In this document: positions 1-12,182 of the stretch, piece after piece
How positions within the stretch are numbered: position 1 is the first letter of the stretch
Layout: every line of letters starts with the position of its first letter
Origin: Sideroxydans lithotrophicus ES-1
GTDB lineage: Bacteria; Pseudomonadota; Gammaproteobacteria; Burkholderiales; Gallionellaceae
Assembly (NCBI RefSeq): GCF_000025705.1
Contig: NC_013959.1
Coordinates: forward strand, 1,727,063-1,791,062
Reading direction: 5' to 3'
Length of the DNA stretch: 64,000 nucleotides
Translations under genes and position numbers: made by a program
Notes under the pieces: model-generated
What the model was told of the DNA's origin: nothing
Seen by the model: only the letters and a program-made list of their open reading frames with translations
Databases searched by the model: none

Positions 1-345
1 GGACGCGACCACGCTGGGGTCGGCAGCTACTACGGCCCGTTCGATGCTCATCACATCTTCGACAAGATACCCAAGGGAGCGCTGGAGACACAGGCGCTCA
101 AGATCGACTGGACGTTCTGGTGCTACAAGTGCGGCGGCATGGCTTCCGCCCGCACCTGCCCTCACGGCGATGCTGATCGCCTGCTGCTCTCCGGCACCAA
201 ATTACGCAAGATGCTTTCCGAAGGCTCCGACGTGCCAGCCGAATTCAGCCGACCGGAAGTACTGGAGATATTGCGCGAGTACTACGCTGGACTGCAAGAG
301 CATGAGAAGGTAGAAGTAAAACTGACGGGGCATTCCGCGAAGTAA
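1..345 (+). CDS. sat: Sulfate adenylyltransferase (ATP sulfurylase), C-terminal part
   Basis: The reading frame is open from base 1 and encodes the last 114 residues of a dissimilatory ATP sulfurylase; the start lies outside the window. The stretch [17 protein letters not shown] is the conserved Sat block around the nucleotide site, and the C-terminal CYKCGG...RTCPHG cysteines are typical of the homo-oligomeric Sat of sulfur oxidisers and sulfate reducers. In the oxidising direction the enzyme converts APS and pyrophosphate to sulfate and ATP in the cytoplasm. It is followed 59 bp later by aprM, so it probably heads or belongs to a sat-aprMBA operon. Family identification is firm; only the extent is incomplete. 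Confidence 0.95.
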
Positions 346-404: not shown

Positions 405-1241
405 ATGTTCACGAGCAATCCCTTTGCCGCACTTTCGGCATCGATTCCAACCGCCTACATGCAGGGGTATATCGTCGTGATGTTCCTGCTGGTCATGGGC
501 GGGACGATACTCGACATGCTTCACAAGAAAAGCGCGCAATACTTTTTCGCCAATGCGAAAAAAGCGCAGAAGAGTGCAAAACGATCTGTGGGTGGCGGAG
601 AAAAGGTGGCGATCGCCACTTCCGTGCTGGTAAAGGAAGTTTTGACTTCTGGCGAATTCGACAATCCAAGACGCAGACTTTCCCATCTGTTGACCATGTG
701 GGGAACCATCATCTTCATCATGACTACCGCAATCATGATCTTTTGCTATCCCACACCGGCAACGCCCACACCTACCCTGCTGCCCCAGCTCTGGCACATC
801 GGCGCGCTGATGCTGGCGGTGGGTGGATACTGGTTCTGGTTTGCCATCCGCGTTGATGTGGCTGCGGAAGGCCTTTCATGGTTTCGGCTTGAGCGCGCGG
901 ACTTGTTCATCCTCTCGCTGCTGGCCACCTCGACCTTCGCATTGGCCTGGTCTTTTACCGGCGGTGGATTGACCGTGTTCTTTGCCTTGTTCATCCTGTC
1001 CAGCACAGTGCTCTTTGGCGGCGTGTATTGGTCCAAGTTTGCCCACATGTTCTTCAAGCCAGCTGCGGCCTATCAGAAGAAAGTCATCATGGCCGATGGT
1101 GGGCGCGAGAATCTGCCTCCCGACTATGACCTGACGGATCCTGAAGTACAGCGAAAGTTTCCGGATATCCCCACGTACATGGGCAAGAACCCGCCCAACA
1201 TGGGACTTTGCATCAAGGCTGAACGAGCAAACCATTACTAA
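405..1241 (+). CDS. aprM: AprM, membrane anchor of APS reductase
   Basis: A 278-residue membrane protein with hydrophobic helices near residues 18-37, 97-115, 127-147, 165-185 and 188-210, and a polar C-terminal tail. Position between sat and aprBA and the overall sequence match AprM, the protein proposed in many sulfur oxidisers to connect AprBA to the quinone pool in place of the QmoABC complex. The start ATG has an AGGAG ribosome site at 392-396. No cofactor-binding motif is evident, so the electron-transfer route is inferred from the family. It is notable because remnants of the alternative Qmo/Hdr system lie at 7733-8098. Confidence 0.9.
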   Translation: MFTSNPFAALSASIPTAYMQGYIVVMFLLVMGGTILDMLHKKSAQYFFANAKKAQKSAKRSVGGGEKVAIATSVLVKEVLTSGEFDNPRRRLSHLLTMWGTIIFIMTTAIMIFCYPTPATPTPTLLPQLWHIGALMLAVGGYWFWFAIRVDVAAEGLSWFRLERADLFILSLLATSTFALAWSFTGGGLTVFFALFILSSTVLFGGVYWSKFAHMFFKPAAAYQKKVIMADGGRENLPPDYDLTDPEVQRKFPDIPTYMGKNPPNMGLCIKAERANHY

Positions 1242-1284: not shown

Positions 1285-1767
1285 ATGCCTACCTTTGTAT
1301 ATATGACGCGTTGTGATGGTTGCGGAGAATGCGTAGACATCTGCCCGTCCGACATCATGCACATCGACAAGAAGCTGCGTCGTGCTTACAACATCGAACC
1401 CAATATGTGCTGGGAATGCTATTCCTGTGTAAAAGCCTGCCCGCATCAAGCGATCGATGTACGCGGTTATGCAGACTTTGCGCCGCTTGGTCACTCGGTA
1501 CGTGTGATCCGGGATGAGGAAAAAGGCACCATTGCATGGCGCATCAAGTTCCGCAACGGCAAAAAAGATATGGAGTTGTTGGCGCCTATCACGACCAAGC
1601 CCTGGGGCTCGGCGACACCGAAACTGGCAGACGAACCTGCTCCAAGCAAGGAGATGCGCGACAGCCAACTGTTGTTTAACGAGCCGAAATATATACGCAT
1701 GGATGAAGGTGGCTTACACACACTGGAATCCAATGGCCTGGAAATTAAAAAAGGGGTGCAATACTAA
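1285..1767 (+). CDS. aprB: Adenylylsulfate reductase beta subunit (2x[4Fe-4S])
   Basis: A 160-residue ferredoxin-type electron-transfer subunit. Two four-cysteine clusters are visible: C10, C13, C16, C20 (CDGCGECVDIC) and C42, C45, C48, C52 (CWECYSCVKAC). The long C-terminal extension after residue 60 is the AprB tail that wraps around AprA. It passes electrons between the FAD of AprA and the membrane partner AprM. It is preceded by a GAGGAG ribosome site near 1273. Its stop codon TAA shares one base with the ATG of aprA, which indicates translational coupling and a 1:1 complex. Confidence 0.97.
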   Translation: MPTFVYMTRCDGCGECVDICPSDIMHIDKKLRRAYNIEPNMCWECYSCVKACPHQAIDVRGYADFAPLGHSVRVIRDEEKGTIAWRIKFRNGKKDMELLAPITTKPWGSATPKLADEPAPSKEMRDSQLLFNEPKYIRMDEGGLHTLESNGLEIKKGVQY

Positions 1768-3659
1768 TGAGCTACCAGACAATTATTGAAGACGATATCG
1801 ACATCCTGGTTGCCGGTGCGGGTCTGGGCGGTACGGGGGCGGCATTCGAGGCAAGATATTGGGGACGGGACAAGAAGATCGTCATCGCCGAAAAGGCGAA
1901 CATCATGCGTTCTGGTGCAGTAGCCCAGGGCCTGTATGCGATCAACTGTTACATGGGCACACGCTTTGGCGAGAACAATCCCGAGGATCATGTGCGCTAT
2001 GCACGTATCGACCTGATGGGTATGGTGCGTGAAGATCTGGCTTTTGATATGGCGCGTCACGTTGACTCCACTGTGCATAATTTTGAAGAATGGGGCCTTC
2101 CCATCATGCGCAACGAGAAGAAGGGTTCGTTTCTGCGTGAAGGACGTTGGCAGATCATGATTCATGGTGAATCCTACAAGCCTATCGTTGCTGAAGCGGC
2201 GAAAAAGCAAGCAGACAAGGTATTCAACCGCGTCTGTTTGACCCATCTGCTAATGGATGAGGCCAAAGAGAACCGTGTTGCCGGTGCTGTAGGCTTCAAC
2301 GTTCGCACAGGTAACTACCACGTATTCAAGTCCAAGACCGTTATCTGTGGTGCCGGTGGTGCTTCCAACATCTTCAAGCCGCGCTCTGTCGGTGAAGGTG
2401 CGGGCCGCGTCTGGTATGCGCCATGGTCTTCCGGTTCCGCATATGGTCTGATGATCGAAGCCGGTGCAAAGATGACCCAAATGGAAAACCGTATCGTACT
2501 GGCTCGATTCAAGGATGGTTACGGTCCTGTTGGCGCCTACTTCCTGCACCTCAAGACCTATACCCAGAATGCCTACGGTGAAGAGTATGAGTCCAAGTGG
2601 TTCCCGGAACTACAGAAGATGGTCGGCAAGGAATACCTGGATCCGGAAGTTTCGCACCGTACGCATCGCCCCATTCCGACCTGCCTGCGTAACCACGCGA
2701 TCATCTCCGAGGTGAATGCCGGACGTGGCCCGATTCACATGGTCACCATGGAAGCCTTCCAGGACCCACATCTTGAAGAGATCGGCTGGCACAACTTCCT
2801 GGGCATGACCGTTGGTCAGGCAGTACTGTGGGCCGCAACTGACGTTGACCCAAAATACGAAAACCCTGAACTGACGACTTCCGAGCCATACGTAATGGGT
2901 TCGCATGCAACGGGTTGTGGCGCTTGGTGTTCAGGCCCTGAAGACTTGTCTCCACCCGAGTACTTCTGGGGCTACAACCGCATGACGACCGTTGAAGGTC
3001 TGTTCGGTGCGGGTGATGCGGCTGGCGGTACACCTCACGCATTCTCATCAGGCTCCTTCACCGAAGGTCGTCTGGCTGCCAAGGCTGCCTGTAAATATAT
3101 CGATGATGGCAAAGCAGAAGGCATCCGCGTTTCTGACGCTCAGATTAATCGCCGCAAGGAACAGATCTACAAGCCACTGGAAACTTATCGCGTTTTTAGC
3201 AACGAAGTGGTTGCCGGTACCGTCAATCCCAACTTCATCAATCCGAGACAGGGTCTTGATCGATTGCAAAAGCTGATGGATGAGTACTGTGGGGGTTTTG
3301 GTGTTAACTACATGACCAACGACAAGCTTCTGAATATCGGTCTGAAGAAGATGTCGATTCTGGGTGAGGATCTGGAAAAGGTTGCTGCGTCTGATATCCA
3401 CGAACTGCTGCGTGCATGGGAGCTGAAGCATCGTTTCCTGACTTCTGAAAGCGTGTTCCATCATACGCTGTTCCGTAAGGAGACACGCTGGCCGGGTTAC
3501 TACTACCGTGGTGATGCGATGAAGCTGGATGATGAGAACTGGCACGTACTGACAGTTTCTCGTCGCAATCCCAAGACGGGCGAGTACACGATGGAAAAAG
3601 CACCTCTTTACCACCTGGTAGGTGATGTAGAGAAAGCGCCCCCAGAAGGCCATCACTAA
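1767..3659 (+). CDS. aprA: Adenylylsulfate reductase alpha subunit (FAD)
   Basis: A 630-residue flavoprotein of the fumarate reductase/succinate dehydrogenase superfamily. The FAD-binding dinucleotide fold is at the N terminus (VAGAGLGGTGAAFEARYWG, about residues 15-33). Later blocks such as SHATGCGAWCSGP and GLFGAGDAAGGTPHAFSSGS are diagnostic for AprA. In sulfur oxidisers it works in reverse, oxidising sulfite with AMP to APS. Length is normal and there is no frameshift. It forms the catalytic heterodimer with AprB and ends 80 bp before a strong terminator, so it closes the sat-aprMBA unit. Confidence 0.98.
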   Translation: MSYQTIIEDDIDILVAGAGLGGTGAAFEARYWGRDKKIVIAEKANIMRSGAVAQGLYAINCYMGTRFGENNPEDHVRYARIDLMGMVREDLAFDMARHVDSTVHNFEEWGLPIMRNEKKGSFLREGRWQIMIHGESYKPIVAEAAKKQADKVFNRVCLTHLLMDEAKENRVAGAVGFNVRTGNYHVFKSKTVICGAGGASNIFKPRSVGEGAGRVWYAPWSSGSAYGLMIEAGAKMTQMENRIVLARFKDGYGPVGAYFLHLKTYTQNAYGEEYESKWFPELQKMVGKEYLDPEVSHRTHRPIPTCLRNHAIISEVNAGRGPIHMVTMEAFQDPHLEEIGWHNFLGMTVGQAVLWAATDVDPKYENPELTTSEPYVMGSHATGCGAWCSGPEDLSPPEYFWGYNRMTTVEGLFGAGDAAGGTPHAFSSGSFTEGRLAAKAACKYIDDGKAEGIRVSDAQINRRKEQIYKPLETYRVFSNEVVAGTVNPNFINPRQGLDRLQKLMDEYCGGFGVNYMTNDKLLNIGLKKMSILGEDLEKVAASDIHELLRAWELKHRFLTSESVFHHTLFRKETRWPGYYYRGDAMKLDDENWHVLTVSRRNPKTGEYTMEKAPLYHLVGDVEKAPPEGHH

Positions 3660-3771: not shown

Positions 3772-3849
3772 ATCTATTTCGCCAGAGTGGAGTAATTGTT
3801 TCCATGAATGATCATAATCAGGTGAAATATTTTTAATGGAGTGGACTTG

Positions 3850-4200
3850 ATGAATATCATTGACAAGACAGATGAAGAGATATCGGAGCTCGCAAATGCC
3901 ATGTGGGCGGATTTGGTCAAATACTCGAATGAAGGCAACTACGGTGCTTTCACGCGCAACTTTTCGAGCACTTTCATTGCGGGTGCCAATGAGGTTGAAA
4001 TGGGAAAACAGTTTGCCAGGAGCGAACTGGCAAAGAACCTGTCGCCGGACTATGAGTATCTTGGCATCATACGTCGTGGCGAATATGTCACCGTGCTATA
4101 CAAACAGAGAAGCTCGAAAAAAGCTGGCGAATGGCTGGGAAGGCTGGTGCTGGGTTATGAAAAAGACAAGGTGAGAATCTTTGGTGCCACCATATTTTAA
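3850..4200 (+). CDS. Uncharacterised 116-aa protein, NTF2/SnoaL-like size
   Basis: I do not recognise a named family. The product is small, soluble and acidic at the N terminus, with a helix-rich first half (residues 1-60) and a strand-rich end (EYLGIIRRGEYVTVLYKQR...). That layout and length resemble the NTF2-like fold, but this is inference only. The ATG at 3850 is chosen over an in-frame GTG at 3841 because GGAG at 3838-3841 is spaced 8 bases from it. It starts a run of same-strand genes (SlyD-like, TPR, HIT, 56 aa) just after the aprA terminator, suggesting a role linked to the sulfur operon. Confidence 0.7.
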   Translation: MNIIDKTDEEISELANAMWADLVKYSNEGNYGAFTRNFSSTFIAGANEVEMGKQFARSELAKNLSPDYEYLGIIRRGEYVTVLYKQRSSKKAGEWLGRLVLGYEKDKVRIFGATIF

Positions 4201-4225
4201 GACAAGGTTTATATAAAGATTCGAT

Positions 4226-4735
4226 ATGTCAGATACCATTGAAGACGATAAATTCGTTGAACTGAATTACAAGGTCATCGATAACAAGACCGGTGACATA
4301 CTCGTTACTGTGGATTATCCGCTGGGTTATGTTCATGGCGTGAATGATGTGATGTCTGAAGAAGTGACAAAGGAACTGTATGGCAAGAAAGTTGGCGATG
4401 TCATCGAAGTGCCAATAGACATTACAAAGTTATACGGTGAGAGAGATGAGTCACTGGTATTTACCGATCGTATAGAAAATGTCCCGGAAGAATATCGGGA
4501 GATCGGCATGACCATCACCATGGAAAATGAAAAGGGTGAGCCCAGAAACTTTATCGTCACACGATTCGACGACAAGACATTGACTGTCGACGGCAATAAT
4601 CCCCTTTGCGGCAGAGAAATCACTTTCATGCTGGAAGTATTGTCCATACGCGAAGCTACCGAGGAAGAGATCGAGCTTGGCGGAGCGGTTGGCGCAGATC
4701 CAGACTTAAATGAAATACTCGACCGAGCAAAATGA
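4226..4735 (+). CDS. FKBP-type peptidyl-prolyl isomerase, SlyD-like
   Basis: A 169-residue protein with the SlyD/FKBP layout: an N-terminal FKBP half containing PLGYVHGVNDV, an inserted IF-like domain (about 70-130), and the return strand with DGNNPLCGREITFMLEVLSI, matching the family motif DGNHPLAG. It lacks the histidine-rich metal-binding tail of E. coli SlyD, so a nickel role is unlikely. It probably acts as a cytoplasmic folding catalyst or chaperone. It overlaps the next gene by 4 bp (ATGA), so both are translationally coupled. Placement directly downstream of aprBA suggests a role in maturing iron-sulfur or flavin enzymes, which is inference. Confidence 0.88.
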   Translation: MSDTIEDDKFVELNYKVIDNKTGDILVTVDYPLGYVHGVNDVMSEEVTKELYGKKVGDVIEVPIDITKLYGERDESLVFTDRIENVPEEYREIGMTITMENEKGEPRNFIVTRFDDKTLTVDGNNPLCGREITFMLEVLSIREATEEEIELGGAVGADPDLNEILDRAK

Positions 4736-5796
4736 AATTCTCGACAAATTACATAATTCATCCTGAGAACAAGGCGCTGGAACGTGCCATAGCCAACGCT
4801 ATGGACCTGCTGAGTGCAGATGTGGCCGCTGCGGCTGTTCCGGATACCAAAGTTGCTGTAGCGGACAATTTTCGTTACACGCGGGGAAATTATGAGCAGC
4901 ACCGTTTCAGTTCAAGGATTTTCGAGAGCTTACGCGAGGCGCTTGAGCTATCGCTGACTGATACGCCTACTACGGCCCGCCCTGCTCCACAAATTCGCCG
5001 TGACCAGGAACCACTAGTCTGGGCTGAGACCCTTAATAATCTGGGAAACATCCTTGCGGCACAGGGTCAGCAGCGGAGAGATGCTGAATCGTTTGAACGG
5101 GCCATCCAGTGTTTCAGCAATGCATTGGAGGAGTTCCGACAGGAATCCTCACCATTGGAATGGGCAGCTACGCAATACAACCTGGGCACGGCCAATCAGG
5201 CGCTGGGTAGGCTGCTTGATGCCACAAAGCCGTTAAAGATCGCTGTCGATGCTTATACCAATGCCTTGCTGGTTTGGACGCGAGATGAGTTTCCGGAAGA
5301 ATGGATGTACACCATGCATCAACTGGGTTCTACCTTGCATACGTACGGAACATTGCTTAAAGGTAACCGTCAATTTCAAAAGTCCGTTGTTGCCTATAAA
5401 AATGCGCTTGCCGTACTCGACGCTGACAATTACGCATTAGAGCTGACTGCCACACATAATAATCGGGCTGCCGCTTTGCATCATCTCGGCGAGTCAGAAG
5501 AAAACCCTGATCGATTAAAAGAAGCGATAAATTCATATGAAAAGGCATTGACGGTCAGTATGGAGCAGCAGCTTCCCATTCATCTGGCGGTGCTATGCAG
5601 GGTAAACAAGACGACAGCACAGAATGCTCTGGCAGAATTAACGAGCGATACAGGACTTGCAGAAGAAGTGGCCGACGAGTTTGAAGTAATTATCGAGTGT
5701 TTTTCGCATGCCCTTCAGCCACTTTGTTTAAGGCATTGCGAGGAGCAAATGAATAAAGCAAGATCGCTGGCGCTGGCCAATAGCGCAAGCTGCTGA
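4732..5796 (+). CDS. Tetratricopeptide-repeat protein
   Basis: A 354-residue soluble protein. From about residue 95 it contains at least four TPR-like repeats with the recurring pattern WA.T..NLGN.....G......ESFERAIQ.., including WAETLNNLGNIL, WAATQYNLGTA and ATHNNRAAALHHLG. The N-terminal 80 residues are not repetitive and lack a signal peptide. TPRs mediate protein-protein contacts, so it is probably a scaffold or cochaperone working with the coupled SlyD-like protein upstream (ATGA overlap). It has no catalytic motif and its partner is unknown. Confidence 0.85.
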   Translation: MKFSTNYIIHPENKALERAIANAMDLLSADVAAAAVPDTKVAVADNFRYTRGNYEQHRFSSRIFESLREALELSLTDTPTTARPAPQIRRDQEPLVWAETLNNLGNILAAQGQQRRDAESFERAIQCFSNALEEFRQESSPLEWAATQYNLGTANQALGRLLDATKPLKIAVDAYTNALLVWTRDEFPEEWMYTMHQLGSTLHTYGTLLKGNRQFQKSVVAYKNALAVLDADNYALELTATHNNRAAALHHLGESEENPDRLKEAINSYEKALTVSMEQQLPIHLAVLCRVNKTTAQNALAELTSDTGLAEEVADEFEVIIECFSHALQPLCLRHCEEQMNKARSLALANSASC

Positions 5797-5811
5797 TAAG
5801 GGGAACGAAGT

Positions 5812-6225
5812 TTGTCGGCTGTAGAGAAAACAGAAAAAAAGCGAGATCCGAACGATCCATGCCTGTTCTGTAAAGATCCGCATGGCGTATCACTGCAGCA
5901 TGAACTTGCTTATAGTGCACGCGACACCTACGCCGTAAGCCCGGGCCATACCTTGGTTATTCCACGTCGCCATGTCGCGAGTTTTTTCGACCTGACGCCC
6001 GAGGAGGTCAATGCCTGCATGGGACTGATCATCGAGGAGCGCTTTCGACTGGACGAGGAATTCAAGCCCGATGGTTACAATATCGGCGTTAACGTGGGAC
6101 CGGCGGCCGGGCAGAGCATATTCCATGTCCATATTCACCTCATTCCGCGCTATCAGGGTGATGTCGAGAATCCGCAAGGGGGCGTGCGTCATGTGATTCC
6201 AAAGAAGGGACACTACACGCGCTAG
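5812..6225 (+). CDS. HIT family nucleotide hydrolase/transferase
   Basis: A 137-residue histidine-triad protein. The signature FHVHIHLIPR gives the H-x-H-x-H core, and an N-terminal CLFC pair is typical of HIT proteins that bind zinc. Family members hydrolyse dinucleoside polyphosphates or nucleoside phosphoramidates and related adenylates. Because APS is an adenylyl compound, use of APS or an AMP adduct is conceivable next to aprBA, but this is inference. A TTG start is chosen because AGGGGAA stands just upstream; no in-frame ATG gives a full domain. Confidence 0.9.
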   Translation: MSAVEKTEKKRDPNDPCLFCKDPHGVSLQHELAYSARDTYAVSPGHTLVIPRRHVASFFDLTPEEVNACMGLIIEERFRLDEEFKPDGYNIGVNVGPAAGQSIFHVHIHLIPRYQGDVENPQGGVRHVIPKKGHYTR

Positions 6226-6308
6226 ATAGTACGATTAGCCAGTCAAGTGGGAGGGGCTGGCAACTCTGTTCAAATTCCTCCCGTTTTCAACCAGCAAGGA
6301 GAATGATT

Positions 6309-6479
6309 ATGAGTGATGACAAGAAGCCTTATACCCGCCCCAAGATTCCGGATGGCCATGCATTCCATGTGACAACTCGTCAGAAAGAGATTACGCCGGG
6401 ACAATTCTTTGTTGGCTATGAAACTATCTGGGAACCGCACCAGAAAGAAGTTCCATACACTACTCCCAAGAAGCCCTGA
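6309..6479 (+). CDS. Uncharacterised 56-aa protein
   Basis: A short open frame supported by an ideal AAGGAG ribosome site at 6296-6301, 7 bases before the ATG; an in-frame ATG at 6303 is too close to it. The product begins MSDDKKPYTRPKIPDGHAF, is hydrophilic and rich in lysine and proline, and has no cysteine or membrane segment. It is the last gene before the terminator at 6579. I do not recognise the family. The clean ribosome site and operon position argue that it is translated. Confidence 0.65.
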   Translation: MSDDKKPYTRPKIPDGHAFHVTTRQKEITPGQFFVGYETIWEPHQKEVPYTTPKKP

Positions 6480-6578
6480 CAAGCATATTCAAGGCTATCA
6501 GCTGCGCGGCACTTTGCCAGATAGTCGAAGGCCGCGCGGATAACGCTAAACAGTTCAAGTCTGGATTTGCTTTATGAC

Positions 6579-6610
6579 AAGCACGCTTCCATAGCGTGCT
6601 TTTCTTTTTG
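6579..6610 (+). terminator. Rho-independent terminator
   Basis: A perfect 9-bp stem, AAGCACGCT (6579-6587) with AGCGTGCTT (6593-6601), a 5-base loop and a T-rich tail. It lies between convergent genes and ends the small-protein operon. Confidence 0.85.
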
Positions 6611-6624
6611 ATATAAAGTGCAAT

Positions 6625-7047
6625 TTAAAGCTTAGGACGCTCAGAAAGCTGGTAATCCACATTAATGAAGGCGCCAATATCGGCCAAAAAACGAATCGTT
6701 CTGGCGCCGAAACCCACATCCGGACAGGTTTCACCTTTATCCGCAGACAGTACCAGTACTACACTGATTCTGGGCGACAAATTGTGGCTTTTGATTACTT
6801 GCAGGATTTTTTCCTTGGCCGGTTCTATTTTTTTAATAATGACGTCCGTCATTTTATAAACGTCAATATTGTCCGTCATCGTTTCCGTTGATAACTCCCA
6901 TGAACTGATCACGGGCTTATCGAGTGGACTGTGCGCGCCGGATGCATCAACCGAGGTAGGTTCGATGCCAAGCAGACGCGTGATGTCATCAGGATCGAAA
7001 TGATAACCACTGAGTGTGAAGTGGGCGCGAGCTTTATTCGATGCCAA
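6625..7047 (-). CDS. DUF4279 domain protein
   Basis: A 140-residue cytoplasmic protein whose features ARAHFTLSGYHFDPDDITRLLGIEPT and ISSWELSTE match the DUF4279 family (function unknown). This family is often found near immunity or toxin-related genes but no such partner is visible here. The start is a TTG with GAGGG about 8 bases upstream; no ATG fits. It stands alone on the minus strand, separated by 214 bp from the rhodanese gene, in which I see nothing further. Confidence 0.75.
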   Translation of the reverse strand: MASNKARAHFTLSGYHFDPDDITRLLGIEPTSVDASGAHSPLDKPVISSWELSTETMTDNIDVYKMTDVIIKKIEPAKEKILQVIKSHNLSPRISVVLVLSADKGETCPDVGFGARTIRFLADIGAFINVDYQLSERPKL

Positions 7048-7261: not shown

Positions 7262-7648
7262 TCAAGTCTGCGCCCAAGGCAAGCCATCAAACCGCCAGCC
7301 ATTGTGCGAATTGCGATGGTGACTATCGTCAAGATCACCTTCGAAACCATGTGTAACGTTGTAGATATCTTTCAAACCCGCATTTTCCAGTGCCAGCCCG
7401 GCATCGGCGGAGCGACGGCCGGAGCGGCAGATGAGTACGATGGGACGATTGACACTGGCTGCCTTGCGCACATGTGCAACAAATAGTGGATCGATTTCCC
7501 AGTCCGGTCCATCCACCCATGGAATAAGGATAGAACCGCGTGGATGACCGACGAACATGTATTCCATTTCACTGCGAACATCGATGAATACCGCTTCGGG
7601 ATTGGCTTGCAGGAATTCGTATGCTTCTTTTGGTTCGAGGTGTTGCAT
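7262..7648 (-). CDS. Rhodanese-like sulfurtransferase
   Basis: A single-domain rhodanese of 128 residues. The catalytic loop ICRSGRRS carries the active cysteine at C74, and VFIDVRSEMEYMFVGHPRGS is the conserved CH2A region. It transfers sulfane sulfur to a thiol acceptor in the cytoplasm; no signal peptide is present. AAGGAG lies just upstream of the ATG and a TATAAT-like hexamer sits at 7684-7689. It lies directly downstream of the qmoA/hdrB remnant on the same strand, so it may be a survivor of that sulfur operon, which is inference. Confidence 0.9.
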   Translation of the reverse strand: MQHLEPKEAYEFLQANPEAVFIDVRSEMEYMFVGHPRGSILIPWVDGPDWEIDPLFVAHVRKAASVNRPIVLICRSGRRSADAGLALENAGLKDIYNVTHGFEGDLDDSHHRNSHNGWRFDGLPWAQT

Positions 7649-7732: not shown

Positions 7733-7939
7733 CTACCTACCTGCGATGTGCCTCAGTTTCTTCGGCTGAATGACGTGGCCGTCCAGCCCTGCCTGCCAAG
7801 CAGTTCCATCATAGGCAACGCTCATTAATTGGGAGTGGTACGCCACTGGAATTGAGAACTTTGTGCCCTGCTTCTTGTTGCACTCAGACTGGTAGACCTC
7901 GACGTTGGTCTGGCACAACTGGCAGGGCGTGACAATCAT
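7733..7939 (-). pseudogene. hdrB: hdrB remnant (C-terminal CCG region)
   Basis: These 68 codons read MIVTPCQLCQTNVEVYQ... and continue through AYHSQLMSVAY and GHVIQPKKLRHIAG. They match the C-terminal end of HdrB (heterodisulfide reductase subunit B), including the last CxxC of the second cysteine-rich CCG motif. The roughly 220 residues that should precede it are absent. Instead the sequence joins directly to a qmoA/hdrA-like start. The C-terminal end and stop are intact, so it is a truncated remnant and not a small functional gene. Confidence 0.8.
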
Positions 7940-8098
7940 TCAGGTTAATTAGCACGCAGGTAGGATGGCATATCTTAGGGAAGTATCGGTATAACAAGAC
8001 GGTACACCCGCCCAAGTTGGTATTGCGCTCGGTCAGTATCACTTGTTGCCGCATTCGGCCAACTCCAGCGCTACGGTCATGCTGCCGCCAACGACGAA
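7940..8098 (-). pseudogene. qmoA: qmoA/hdrA remnant (N-terminal FAD-binding region)
   Basis: Read on the minus strand, one frame gives IFVVGGSMTVALELAECGNK and then hits a stop. Shifting one base continues as VILTERNTNLGGC, then LLYRYFPKICHPTCVLIN. Together these match the first 60 or so residues of QmoA/HdrA: the FAD dinucleotide fold, the ExNxxLGG motif and the YFPKxCxPTC cysteines. The frameshift, a small deletion in the glycine loop and the missing remainder show that it is dead. QmoA is preferred over HdrA from the sulfur-oxidiser context and gene order, which is inference. Confidence 0.75.
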
Positions 8099-8134
8099 GA
8101 TGGACTATGGACTCAATCAATCCTCAGATTCAGG

Positions 8135-8659
8135 TTACAGCAAGGTACGAATCTCAAAATTCATGTGTTCCAGGTCGCCGAGTATCCAGGTCGGACTGGC
8201 AATCACGCCCGGGGCATCGATACCTGCGACCGAGCCGGGATTGACCAGCCAGCTTTGACCGCCACTGATGTTGGTTTGCTTGCCGACATGAGCGGTATGG
8301 CTGTGTCCATGGCAAACCAGATCATACGCGCCGGTACAGGCAAAGGCATGGCCATGGTGCGGCATATGTGTGACAAAGATCTTGCGTCCGCCGAATTCCA
8401 GTTCGGCCTCCTGTCCATGGTAGGTAAACAACCTGTCCGACTTGGCCATCATGCGATATAGCGCTGCGACATCGCCGATATTGTTTCCATGTACGGCGTG
8501 AATGGGTATACCGAGTTTGAGAGAGGCTCTCAGTGTGTTGACGCCAATCAGGTCGCCGCAATGGATCACGGCTTTTGCACCCAAAGTCTGCGCTTCCACG
8601 ATCGCCTCCACGAGGGGGGCGGAGCGGTCATGGCTATCTGAAACGATGCATATCTTCAT
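8135..8659 (-). CDS. YfcE/MJ0936-type metallophosphodiesterase
   Basis: A 174-residue phosphodiesterase with the full calcineurin-like metal set in order: VSDSHD, HCGDL, HGNN, THMPHHGH and CHGHSHT. Family members hydrolyse phosphodiesters such as bis-pNPP, or 2',3'-cNMP, in the cytoplasm. The ATG at 8659 is chosen because family members begin MKICIVSDSHD; an in-frame ATG at 8692 would add 11 residues. It ends 36 bp before the qmoA remnant on the same strand. The real substrate is unknown. Confidence 0.88.
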   Translation of the reverse strand: MKICIVSDSHDRSAPLVEAIVEAQTLGAKAVIHCGDLIGVNTLRASLKLGIPIHAVHGNNIGDVAALYRMMAKSDRLFTYHGQEAELEFGGRKIFVTHMPHHGHAFACTGAYDLVCHGHSHTAHVGKQTNISGGQSWLVNPGSVAGIDAPGVIASPTWILGDLEHMNFEIRTLL

Positions 8660-8940
8660 AGCCTTGGTTATGTCGCCAAGATTGCGTGACATTAGGCAGA
8701 ATTCGTTCTCCCAGTGTCTATAACCACATCGGGTGGGGGGTACTATAGCCCTGATGGGGTAGCGTGGATAAATCGACCGTCGTTGTGTTGATATTGAGAT
8801 GTTTTATTGATATTAAGGTCAAAGCGGAATACCCTTACGCTTCATCCAGGATGGTCAGGCACATCTGATACAGACATACTCGACAGGGCTTCAGGACATT
8901 GATTTTCCTGAAGACCAAACCGGAGTAGGAAGGCTACGGC

Positions 8941-10164
8941 ATGAGCAGAAAGATAAAGTTGATTGAGGAATCGGACAACGTGGCGTTCTACTGGACGCGC
9001 GATCCTGAGTTCGTCCTTCCTGGCAAGAACGGCGGGCTGGACACCTGCGTAGAACAGGAGTTCGCCACTGCCCGAAGCAACGATCTCAAGACACTGCTGA
9101 ACTCCTTTCTGGAAACTGCCATCGGTTTCATCAAAGCTCGGGCCTGTGTTGTACGCGTCTTGTTACCCGACGAACAAACCCTGCAACTCATCAGCGCCGT
9201 AGGATTGACCGGCGAAGAACTGGAAGCCGAACGCATCGTCGAACTGGCCTGCGAAGATTGCGGCAAGGATGCCTTCAAACACGGGCTCTGTTCCTCCGAT
9301 GTCGAAACCTGCGTAACACGGCATGGTGACCGTCCCCATCGGCAGTTCCGCTCGGTCATTTCCATCCCGCTGGAAAGTCGCAACTCCCCCGAGGCCATGC
9401 TGGGCGTTTTCACCCTGTTTTTTGACACCCCGCAATCGACTTCTGGAAATGCAGCAGAAATGGCGGTCAGTTTCGCCGATCTGTTGGGCACACTGCTCGA
9501 ACACATCAAAGCCACCCGGGAAGCCAAGCGCGAAGAGTTATTGAAGGAGCGCCAATCGATCGCCAACGAAATCCATGATTCACTGGCTCAGACGCTGAAT
9601 TACGCGCGCATGAACACGACCCTGTTGAGCGACGCGGTACGCAACAACAATGAAGTGATGGCGACCAAATATACGCGCGATATCGATGAGGCACTGGAGA
9701 TAGGACAAAAAACAGTGCGCACCCTGATAACGGATTTCCGCAGCGATATGGATCCAGCTGGGCTATTGCAGGCATTGCAGACGCTGTCCGAACAGTTCCG
9801 CCGGCAGCACAATATCGTGCTTCACTGCTCCATCCGGGTAGCCGACCTCGATCTGCCCCTGGAACATGAGATACAGGCTTATCACATCGTGCGTGAAGCG
9901 CTCTCCAACATCGCAAAACATTCAAATGCGAGCCATGCCCGACTGATCGTCGACCACCTTTGCGGTTATTATGTTTTTACCGTCGAAGACAACGGCGTTG
10001 GAACCTTTTCTCCTGTGGAAGGCCATTACGGAATCATCATCATGCGTGAACGCGCACAGCGCATCGGTGGCGAGATCAAAGTAGAAAGCACCAAAGGGTT
10101 AGGAACATGCGTACAATTATTCTTCCCTGAACCCGGGACGAACTGGAGGACAGCGCATGCCTGA
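8941..10164 (+). CDS. GAF-domain sensor histidine kinase, NarX/NreB type
   Basis: A 407-residue soluble kinase. A GAF domain (about 45-190) is followed by a HisKA_3 dimerisation domain with NEIHDSLAQ (phospho-acceptor H212) and an HATPase domain with ALSNIAKHSN, VEDNGVG and IMRERAQRIGG. There are no transmembrane helices, so the signal is cytoplasmic. The GAF domain has four clustered cysteines (C104, C107, C117, C124) that could sense redox state or bind metal. It overlaps the response regulator gene by 8 bp. AGGAAGG precedes the ATG. The 248-bp upstream region has a direct repeat TTGATATT at 8788 and 8807, but I see no convincing promoter. Confidence 0.92.
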   Translation: MSRKIKLIEESDNVAFYWTRDPEFVLPGKNGGLDTCVEQEFATARSNDLKTLLNSFLETAIGFIKARACVVRVLLPDEQTLQLISAVGLTGEELEAERIVELACEDCGKDAFKHGLCSSDVETCVTRHGDRPHRQFRSVISIPLESRNSPEAMLGVFTLFFDTPQSTSGNAAEMAVSFADLLGTLLEHIKATREAKREELLKERQSIANEIHDSLAQTLNYARMNTTLLSDAVRNNNEVMATKYTRDIDEALEIGQKTVRTLITDFRSDMDPAGLLQALQTLSEQFRRQHNIVLHCSIRVADLDLPLEHEIQAYHIVREALSNIAKHSNASHARLIVDHLCGYYVFTVEDNGVGTFSPVEGHYGIIIMRERAQRIGGEIKVESTKGLGTCVQLFFPEPGTNWRTAHA

Positions 10165-10864
10165 TGAATTGAAGATCGTACTAGTAGATGACCAAAGCCT
10201 GTGTCGACGCGGACTGAGCGAACTGCTTTCGCGCTGTTACGGCTTCAATGTGCTTGGCGCCGTCGGCACCATCGAGGATCTGCGCTCACTGATCAAGGAA
10301 CAGCCAGACCTGCTGGTAGTGGACCTGCGCATGAAACCGATGGACGGACTGGCCATGATTGAGCAGTTGCGCAAGGAAGGGTGCGATATCCCCGCAGTAT
10401 TGCTGACCATGAGCGATTCTGAAGTGGATCTGGGAAATGCGATACGCGCCGGGGTACGCGGCTACCTGCTCAAGGATATGGCGCCTGAAGAAGTGGTAGA
10501 TGCCATTCGCCGCGTAGCTGCCGGCGAACTGGTAGTCGCACCGACCATGACTGTGAAGATGATCGACATGTTACGTGGCGATCAGTCAGGCCAGGAACCC
10601 AAGAACTCGCTCAAACTGCTGACCGAACGCGAACGCGAGATCCTGCAGTTGCTATCTCGCGGCGAAAGCAACAAGGCGATCGCACTCACTTTGTCGATCA
10701 GTTATGACACGGTAAAACAGCATGTGCGACACATCCTGAACAAACTCAATCTGTCATCGCGCGTAAAGGCAGCAGTACTGTTCGCCAAGGAACAGGGAAC
10801 GCCGGAAGAAGACGATACACAGTCGAGCAAACCCGTTGGATCCAAGCAACAAGGAAGTAGATAA
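10157..10864 (+). CDS. NarL/LuxR-family response regulator
   Basis: A 235-residue regulator. The receiver domain (1-120) shows the acidic pair in VLVDDQSL, the phospho-acceptor aspartate in LLVVDLRM and the lysine in YLLKDM. The C-terminal LuxR helix-turn-helix is LTEREREILQLLSRGESNKA. It is coupled to the histidine kinase gene upstream and followed 46 bp later by sqr, which suggests that the pair controls or is cotranscribed with sulfide oxidation. This regulatory link is inferred from position only. Confidence 0.93.
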   Translation: MPDELKIVLVDDQSLCRRGLSELLSRCYGFNVLGAVGTIEDLRSLIKEQPDLLVVDLRMKPMDGLAMIEQLRKEGCDIPAVLLTMSDSEVDLGNAIRAGVRGYLLKDMAPEEVVDAIRRVAAGELVVAPTMTVKMIDMLRGDQSGQEPKNSLKLLTEREREILQLLSRGESNKAIALTLSISYDTVKQHVRHILNKLNLSSRVKAAVLFAKEQGTPEEDDTQSSKPVGSKQQGSR

Positions 10865-10910
10865 ATCAGGAAATCGTTCCGTCAATCGATCTATACAAAG
10901 AGGAGAAAAC

Positions 10911-12182
10911 ATGGCACACATCGTCATTATGGGAGCAGGTCTGGGCGGCATGCCGGCAGCCTACGAGATGCGGGAAAAGCTGGACAAGAAGCATAAGGTA
11001 ACCGTCATCAACAACGGCGAGAATTTCCACTTTGTCCCTTCCAATCCCTGGGTCGGCGTTAAGTGGCGTGATCGCAATCAAATCGAATTTCCGGTGCGCA
11101 CCTACCTGGAGCGCAAGGGCATCGAATTCATCTCAACTGGGGTAAAACGCGTACATCCCGACCAGAACCAGCTGGAATTGAACGACGGCAAGACAGTGGA
11201 TTACGATTATCTGGTAATCGCTACCGGCCCCAAGCTGGCCTTCGAAGAAGTCGAAGGCCTTGGACCGCATGGCGGCCACACTTACTCCGTATGCCATGTC
11301 GATCACGCAATGAAATCGCATGACGTATGGGACGATTTCTGCAAGAAACCCGGCCCTATCGTGGTTGGCGCTGTGCAGGGAGCATCCTGCTTCGGCCCTG
11401 CCTACGAATATGCCTTCATCATGGAGACCGACCTGCGCAAACGCAAGCTGCGCGACAAGGTGCCGATGACCTTCGTGACCGCCGAACCCTATATCGGCCA
11501 CTTGGGTCTGGGAGGCGTAGGGGATTCCAATGGTATCCTCGAATCAGGCATGCGCGACAAACATATCAAGTGGATCTGCAATGCCAAGGTGACCAAGATC
11601 GAAGCAGGCAAGATGTATGTCACCGAACACGACGATATGGGCGTGGAGAAGAAAAAACACGAGCTGCCTTTCAGCTACAGCATGATGCTGCCCGCCTTCA
11701 AAGGCGTGGATGCCGTGTTCGGCATCGAAGGCCTGACCAACCCGCGCGGTTTCATCATCGTGGACAAGCACCAGCGCAATCCGAAATACAAGAACGTCTT
11801 CGCGGTAGGTGTCTGTGTTGCAATTCCTCCCGTAGAAGCCACTCCGGTTCCCTGCGGCACGCCCAAGACCGGTTATATGATCGAATCCATGGTGACCGCA
11901 ACTGTACACAATATCCACGCTGATCTGGACGGTACACCAGCCGACACCGAGGCAACCTGGAATGCAGTGTGTCTGGCCGACTTCGGCGAAAGCGGTGTTG
12001 CCTTCGTTGCGATACCGCAAATCCCGCCACGCAACGTGAACTGGTTCTCCGAAGGCAAGTGGGTGCATCTGGCCAAGGTCGCATTCGAGAAGTACTTCAT
12101 CCGCAAAATGAAAAAAGGCAATTCAGAACCGTTCTACGAAGGTAGCATCCTCAAAATGCTGGGCATCGAGAAACTGAAATAA
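10911..12182 (+). CDS. sqr: Sulfide:quinone oxidoreductase
   Basis: A 423-residue membrane-associated flavoprotein that oxidises sulfide to polysulfide and reduces quinone. The N-terminal MAHIVIMGAGLGGMPAAYEM is the FAD fold. Cysteines C128, C160 (GASCFGPAYEYAF) and C354 (NAVCLADFG) align with the three catalytic cysteines 128, 160 and 356 of the Acidithiobacillus ferrooxidans enzyme, as I recall that sequence. The C-terminal WVHLAKVAFEKYFIRKMK is the amphipathic membrane-binding end. The ATG at 10911 has AGGAG 5 bases upstream; a longer frame from 10836 lacks one. It follows a two-component pair. Confidence 0.95.
   Translation: MAHIVIMGAGLGGMPAAYEMREKLDKKHKVTVINNGENFHFVPSNPWVGVKWRDRNQIEFPVRTYLERKGIEFISTGVKRVHPDQNQLELNDGKTVDYDYLVIATGPKLAFEEVEGLGPHGGHTYSVCHVDHAMKSHDVWDDFCKKPGPIVVGAVQGASCFGPAYEYAFIMETDLRKRKLRDKVPMTFVTAEPYIGHLGLGGVGDSNGILESGMRDKHIKWICNAKVTKIEAGKMYVTEHDDMGVEKKKHELPFSYSMMLPAFKGVDAVFGIEGLTNPRGFIIVDKHQRNPKYKNVFAVGVCVAIPPVEATPVPCGTPKTGYMIESMVTATVHNIHADLDGTPADTEATWNAVCLADFGESGVAFVAIPQIPPRNVNWFSEGKWVHLAKVAFEKYFIRKMKKGNSEPFYEGSILKMLGIEKLK

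Follow-up and report, generated by a model that had tools for sequence, protein, structure and literature searches.

Does the short minus-strand segment between the rhodanese and yfcE genes of Sideroxydans lithotrophicus ES-1, an iron and sulfur oxidiser, record the loss of an electron-transfer operon and, if so, what took its place? The segment lies in the window, a stretch of 64,000 nucleotides (NC_013959.1, positions 1,727,063 to 1,791,062), whose relevant features are collected in Table 1. The initial annotation had read here the start of qmoA/hdrA, with a single frameshift, joined by one internal deletion to the C-terminal end of hdrB, and had proposed either that the Qmo/Hdr module was replaced by AprM or that a second system was lost.

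Table 1. Features of the ES-1 apr locus and its flank (positions in the window).
Feature	Position	Strand	Remarks	Basis
sat, 3' end	1..345	+	start upstream of the window, beside a molybdopterin-oxidoreductase gene	
aprM	405..1241	+	membrane-protein gene of lineage-I Apr loci	
aprB	1285..1767	+	lineage I, without the charged loop of lineage II	sequence; loop as in the available text of PMC2211403
aprA	1767..3659	+	lineage I	
companion block	3841..7047	mixed	companions of aprMBA in lineage-I relatives	
orf3841	from 3841	+	aprMBA companion; no Pfam match	
FKBP-like gene	4226-4735	+	no Pfam match	named by eye
TPR gene	4732-5796	+		
HIT gene	5812-6225	+		
DUF4279 gene	6625-7047	-		
rhodanese-domain gene	7262..7648	-	adjoins hdrB in operon-bearing relatives	
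hdrB remnant	7733..7939	-	codons 232-299 and stop; 68-codon open frame	translation, tblastn, NCBIfam, codon-position test
qmoA remnant	7941..8104	-	codons ~10-68	tblastn with intact L015 QmoA; split alignment
yfcE-type metallophosphoesterase gene	8135..8692	-	adjoins qmoA in operon-bearing relatives; orthologue in L015	
histidine kinase, response regulator, sqr-like gene	8941..12182	+	far flank	kinase and regulator named by eye

Three-frame translation and tblastn with an intact protein of the same genus placed QmoA residues 10-33 at 8104-8042 of the minus strand in one frame and, in a second frame, residues 32-68 at 8048-7941 (E 4e-14, with 78% identity across 37 aligned positions); in the latter match three residues are gone from the FAD-binding loop and one more downstream. 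HdrB residues 232-299 follow at 7939-7736 with 75% identity (E 4e-31) and a stop at 7733. The FAD-binding N-terminus of an HdrA-like QmoA thus stands at one end and the C-terminus of HdrB at the other, as the initial annotation had claimed. Its single frameshift is indeed present inside qmoA, but the frame changes again at the qmoA/hdrB junction; likewise, the remnant does occupy 7733-8098, but nucleotide homology is wider at both ends, running toward the yfcE stop and across the hdrB-rhodanese spacer. Pfam matched neither piece. With NCBIfam the qmoA piece gave no match and the hdrB piece only matches far under the curated cut-offs, to the C-terminal end of SdhE and HdrB models. When the 489-nt yfcE-rhodanese interval was aligned in split mode with that of an intact relative, the score was 391, against -67, -56 and -38 for three shuffles, which rules out chance similarity (n=3). 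The interval keeps nucleotides 1-225 and 4900-5198 of the 5198 in the reference; both ends of the operon are retained and about 4.67 kb is missing, in agreement with one internal deletion joining the first gene to the last. A search of the ES-1 genome for an intact copy elsewhere returned no second HdrB (the self match plus one at E=0.2) and no QmoB (best match 19 bits). With qmoB and hdrC gone from the site and qmoA and hdrB truncated, ES-1 has no complete QmoAB-HdrCB. Segment 7733-8104 is therefore a deletion scar of a qmoA-qmoB-hdrC-hdrB operon, a real fossil.

Because the same two genes, yfcE and rhodanese, flank the site in ES-1 and in its relatives, it can be followed at its orthologous position. 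We found yfcE in 24 of 34 genomes of the genus (the G012 copy is a broken piece), and in three of the 34 (G017, G021 and G026) it is followed by intact qmoA-qmoB-hdrC-hdrB genes coding for a QmoA of 429, a QmoB of 748 and an HdrB of about 299 residues. The rhodanese gene comes next in G021 and G026, as in ES-1, and the G017 contig ends within hdrC. Profile matches agree with these identities, with HdrA-like FAD proteins, FlpD and ferredoxin domains, and HdrC- and HdrB-like proteins, at scores under the curated NCBIfam cut-offs. The remaining 21 yfcE-bearing genomes of the genus hold no intact operon; tblastn detected a remnant in 11 of them (one weak, E 0.009) and none in 10. We also scanned named genomes and obtained 56 yfcE loci, 39 from close relatives, many being genus genomes already counted. 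Among these 39, 14 have the operon (the three of the genus included, some cut by contig ends), 9 a remnant and 15 none at E 1e-4, and one is cut after yfcE. Most of the relatives compared are draft MAGs. Since yfcE stands beside qmoA outside the family as well (G050, G056, G220, G230 and G281), the linkage is old. The same neighbourhood was seen in other families of the order (L019, L021, L274, L281 and L284), and the yfcE-type gene is often retained where qmo has been lost.

The scars are not all alike. G004 has the structure found in ES-1 plus extra deletions, G024, L217 and L218 retain the first 7-33 and the last 293-329 nucleotides of the operon interval, and G012 retains qmoA up to nucleotide 291 and nothing of hdrB. 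One breakpoint pair is common to L228, L231 and L240, and other pairs occur in L220, in L230 and in L232/L234. As ES-1, G012 and the G024 group each hold sequence that is missing in the others, none of these scars can be derived from another. Losses were counted on a tree of five flanking proteins with 45 loci, of which 15 have the operon intact, 29 have lost it and 1 is unknown (L253 was dropped for too few columns); with no regain allowed, the best topology calls for 8 losses. When branches were collapsed and each node counted once, 5 losses (branches under 80 bootstrap) or 4 (under 95) remained; unordered parsimony gave 6 changes on this tree and 5 on a quicker one. The ES-1 scar is ordinary as a pseudogene; its interest is as a marker of the repeated loss of an electron-transfer partner beside another enzyme set.

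We then considered whether the 68-codon frame at 7733-7939, which is open from an ATG to a natural stop, might encode a functional short HdrB-like protein. Because synonymous sites were saturated in several pairs, lineage-specific changes by codon position were used instead of whole-tail dN/dS, a change unique to ES-1 requiring the agreement of four intact genes and one unique to another gene that of three. Of the ES-1-specific changes in the shared hdrB tail, 14 of 19 fell at codon positions 1 and 2, as compared with 10 of 40 in the four intact genes (Fisher p 0.0006). The non-synonymous proportion in this tail was 0.105-0.136 between ES-1 and these four genes and 0.037-0.068 among the four; at 0.14-0.18 from all the others, a fifth intact hdrB (L227) is itself divergent, on par with ES-1. 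By its codon pattern the ES-1 residue is drifting under relaxed constraint. Less than a quarter of HdrB is left, and the remnants of relatives vary in length, some with stops, so that there is no conserved short gene among them. We consider a functional product of this frame extremely improbable. A conserved short gene is likewise rejected, both by the codon pattern and by the differences between the remnants of the clades.

What stands beside the scar is an Apr locus of the other type. Two lineages of Apr loci have been described in sulfur oxidisers: lineage-II AprB has a charged loop that presumably docks Qmo, and lineage-I AprB has no loop, with aprM co-transcribed (PMC2211403). The correlation of Apr I with AprM and of Apr II with Qmo or QmoAB-HdrBC was published in the same paper, which, in its available text, describes lineage-I APS reductase as having no known native redox partner and guesses AprM to be an anchor; AprM has also been named as a substitute AprAB partner in some sulfur oxidisers (PMC10504309). 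The pairing itself is thus already known. In ES-1 aprM precedes aprBA, qmo is absent and AprB has no loop between its first cysteines, which assigns the locus to lineage I; by sequence the AprB of operon-bearing G026 has the charged loop and that of ES-1 does not. Against the NCBIfam QmoC model, AprM aligns with the membrane part (155-357) at an E value of 4e-6, with a score far under the cut-off; this weak resemblance would fit a link on the quinone side.

The state of the operon was then compared with the Apr type. AprA was found in 27 of the 34 genus genomes, with 48% identity to that of ES-1 in the three operon-bearing genomes, where the order is sat-aprB-aprA-ykgJ with no adjoining aprM, and 93-100% identity in the other 24. 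In a search of 20 genomes with the prediction set beforehand, the 11 operon-bearing ones comprised 8 with lineage II, 3 with no AprA and 0 with lineage I, and the 7 scarred or empty ones 5 with lineage I, 1 with no AprA and 1 with both; L252 and L253 had no AprA. L252, whose contig stops after yfcE, was left out of the state counts, and L221, L222, L228, L239 and L250, having no apr, were dropped from the 39-row table. In the combined apr-bearing loci, all 12 with the operon had lineage II only, and 26 of the 27 that had lost it had lineage I only, the last having both (Fisher p 3e-9, phylogeny ignored). The association is phylogenetically clumped: supported branches provide just 4 independent pairs, 3 in the expected direction, 0 against and 1 equal, too few for significance. 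On a pheT tree, built without G013 (no pheT match) and without G017, G025 and G033 (partial matches, no locus), Apr type changed 7 times against a mean of 8.3 after shuffling and is hardly clustered; its two operon-bearing genomes are sisters amid lineage-I genomes.

In 399 genomes of the order, the best 2-3 QmoB and AprA candidates per genome were scored, so that second copies may have escaped. AprM and lineage-I AprA (at least 61% identity) occurred in the same 45 genomes, lineage-II AprA (45-50%) in 54 and QmoB in 58. QmoB was present in 42 of 43 genomes with lineage II only, 1 of 34 with lineage I only and all 11 with both, and four QmoB genomes had no AprA match. G112 has lineage-I AprA, AprM and QmoB and no lineage-II AprA among these candidates, and G416 has lineage II and no QmoB among them; either may reflect an assembly gap or the limit of the search. 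The locus with a scar and both Apr types, L244 in G445, also has a truncated ykgJ. G445, possibly a mixed bin, bears the label of a Thiobacillus MAG, and its yfcE contig clusters with those of Gallionellaceae; another of its contigs, C42, carries both AprA types about 50 kb apart (L290, L299).

We next compared the gene order around both kinds of apr genes. The molybdopterin-oxidoreductase gene beside sat is presumably soeA; by Pfam, the soe genes code for a molybdopterin oxidoreductase and a DmsC-type anchor. Lineage-II loci L308 and L310 read soe-sat-aprB2-aprA2-ykgJ, and L306 with L219 (genome G432) reads sat-aprB2-aprA2-ykgJ-rhodanese-hdrB-hdrC-qmoB-qmoA-yfcE. In G443 one contig (L311) holds aprB2-aprA2-ykgJ-rhodanese-hdrB-hdrC and the other (L241) yfcE-qmoA-qmoB. 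Lineage-I genomes have soe-sat-aprM-aprB-aprA-orf3841-FKBP-TPR-HIT and DUF4279-rhodanese-scar-yfcE, in full in G004 and ES-1. A different set of homologues thus lies between the same flanks, the right flank being seen in two lineage-II genomes (G432 and G443). The order aprBA-qmoA-qmoB-hdrC-hdrB assumed in the initial annotation does not hold, since the operon of the relatives converges on sat-aprBA, with ykgJ and the rhodanese gene between them where the two are linked. Of the 13 lineage-II apr loci that were mapped, 2 show such linkage (rhodanese beyond ykgJ in L306 and L311; L307 stops right after ykgJ), none of the mapped lineage-II loci holds the whole soe-to-yfcE chain on a single stretch, and in G017, G021 and G026 apr-II and qmo are on separate contigs with differing neighbours. 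Broken ykgJ pieces lie between HIT and rhodanese in the lineage-I genomes G029 and G013 (in G029 accompanied by part of another rhodanese gene), and L242 has a further decayed ykgJ end; these relics support the linked order as ancestral. In ES-1 no relic of ykgJ or aprBA-II was detected. An ES-1-like sat also occurs beside lineage II (L306-L308) and a G026-like sat beside lineage I (G005, G011 and G423), as judged by identity only, so that sat seems to lie outside the exchanged segment. Shared flanks and ykgJ relics point to an exchange at one locus.

We consider it probable that the ES-1 scar was left after aprBA-II had been exchanged in place for aprM-aprBA-I, the operon then being deleted and its residue drifting. 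The ancestral locus, as pieced together from several relatives, would have read soe(-) sat(+) aprB-aprA of lineage II(+) ykgJ(+) rhodanese(-) hdrB-hdrC-qmoB-qmoA(-) yfcE(-) hisK-RR-sqr(+). In the ES-1 line, aprBA-II and ykgJ would have been swapped for aprM-aprBA of lineage I with its accessory genes, as suggested by the shared flanks and by the ykgJ relics of relatives. From its published function, QmoAB-HdrCB would be the link of lineage-II AprBA to the quinone pool, and so, with aprBA-II gone, it would have lost its partner. The deletion, which spans the sequence between qmoA codon ~68 and hdrB codon ~231, would then have removed the operon, the drift since then being apparent in the codon pattern. 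In the living cell, AprM would be expected to take over from Qmo as the membrane link, here for AprBA-I. The replacement by AprM suggested in the initial annotation is thus supported for the electron-transfer genes, the intact operon going with aprBA-II without aprM and the scar with aprM-aprBA-I; it would not have concerned these genes alone, aprBA itself being part of the proposed exchange.

The loss of a second system, offered as the alternative, would mean that an ancestor had both aprM-aprBA-I and aprBA-II with Qmo-HdrCB and that its lines each kept one, with no exchange in place. The 11 double genomes among the 399, all with QmoB, indicate that such a state is viable (and it may be a transient stage of an exchange), and most of the mapped lineage-II loci have apr away from the qmo site. 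However, in G432 and G443 lineage-II apr adjoins the rhodanese gene, where lineage-I genomes have aprMBA and its companions, and the genus search gives one AprA type per genome. Moreover, AprA-I of ES-1 is 94-97% identical to that of five genomes of another family, whereas AprA-II is at 89-91% where QmoB is at 73-77%; this closeness across families, at similar QmoB distance, suggests transfer. The comparison favours replacement, and we hold the loss of a redundant system to be unlikely. An AprMBA tree rejects the genus as a clade (p-AU 0.005), a weak sign of transfer since the flanking-gene tree also mixes genera; the grouping of G001 with G031 in the AprMBA tree is not rejected (p-AU 0.54), so that this pair is no evidence for transfer.

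The deletion might also have taken place elsewhere, aprMBA and the scarred yfcE side moving horizontally into the ES-1 line ready-made. This would account for the scar structure common to ES-1 and G004 and for their somewhat higher nucleotide identity from aprB to hit (87-93% in 600-nt pieces, against 76-91% for G005, G011 and G024), and pheT joins G004 with G023, the placement of ES-1 being unresolved on that tree. Yet from rhodanese through the scar to yfcE, ES-1 and G004 are only 71-80% identical with no sharp block boundary, and common ancestry explains the scar equally well; an imported scar thus seems quite improbable. If the exchange in place is accepted for ES-1, it is tempting to extend it: aprM-aprBA-I with orf3841-FKBP-TPR-HIT might be an exchangeable cassette of the Gallionellaceae and a neighbouring family that replaced aprBA-II more than once by recombination in conserved flanks, Qmo-HdrCB decaying each time and AprM, with the companions, doing the same electron-transfer job alone. 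We put this forward tentatively, as something possible rather than probable. The orf3841, FKBP-like, TPR, HIT and DUF4279 genes go with aprM-aprBA in two families (L280, L282), and orf3841 and the FKBP-like gene were also seen in G380, of a third family.

Several known cases resemble this one. As in the Apr loci of sulfur oxidisers (PMC2211403), ES-1 has aprM-aprBA without qmo and the operon-bearing relatives aprBA-II with qmoAB-hdrCB, but here both states occur in one genus, whose lineage-I members carry scars of the partner operon. HdrAACB/QmoABHdrCB is an annotated set in proteobacterial sulfur oxidisers (PMC6397845) and agrees with the lost operon both in its genes and in their order; of that operon ES-1 keeps just the two ends. 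Transfer of Apr lineages and putative xenologous replacement have been reported (PMC5099947), and Thioalkalivibrio sp. HK1, with a putative replacement of aprBA lineage I by II, is likewise an exchange within a group; its direction is opposite and was argued from an AprBA tree, whereas here the scar shows that Qmo-HdrCB was lost. In Thiobacillus, members have lineage II alone or both lineages (PMC10086054, PMC11294248), so that Apr type varies inside a genus there too, but the available text of these papers reports presence or absence, with no mention of a scar or a shared locus. The ES-1 transcriptome showed induction of dsr and sox on thiosulfate (PMC8788666); the whole words 'apr' and 'sat' are absent from the available main text of that paper, as are apr, qmo and hdr from that of the Gallionellaceae pangenome paper (PMC10734462). 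By title or start of abstract, subscription papers being outside this scope, we found no published description of qmo scars or of exchange at the same locus. A genus split between members with AprBA-II plus Qmo-HdrCB and members that have AprM, AprBA-I and fossils of the losing set amounts to a natural complementation experiment, and it suggests that the two redox partners are interchangeable in one cellular background; the split also names the genomes to compare. As qmo or aprM can switch inside a genus, caution is needed in predicting sulfur metabolism from marker genes.

Two minor observations concern other genes in genomes of the genus. In G026, soeA and sat are separated by multihaem and NapC/NirT-type cytochrome genes (L111, 3746-7757), and G021 and G017 have such genes to the left of sat, whereas ES-1 has none there and its soeA adjoins sat. 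Six genomes (G005, G011, G017, G021, G026 and G030) encode another, distant HdrA-like protein with an FlpD-like end, in most cases about 650-660 residues long, and in G026 (L112, contig C61) its gene is near distant hdrB- and hdrC-like genes.
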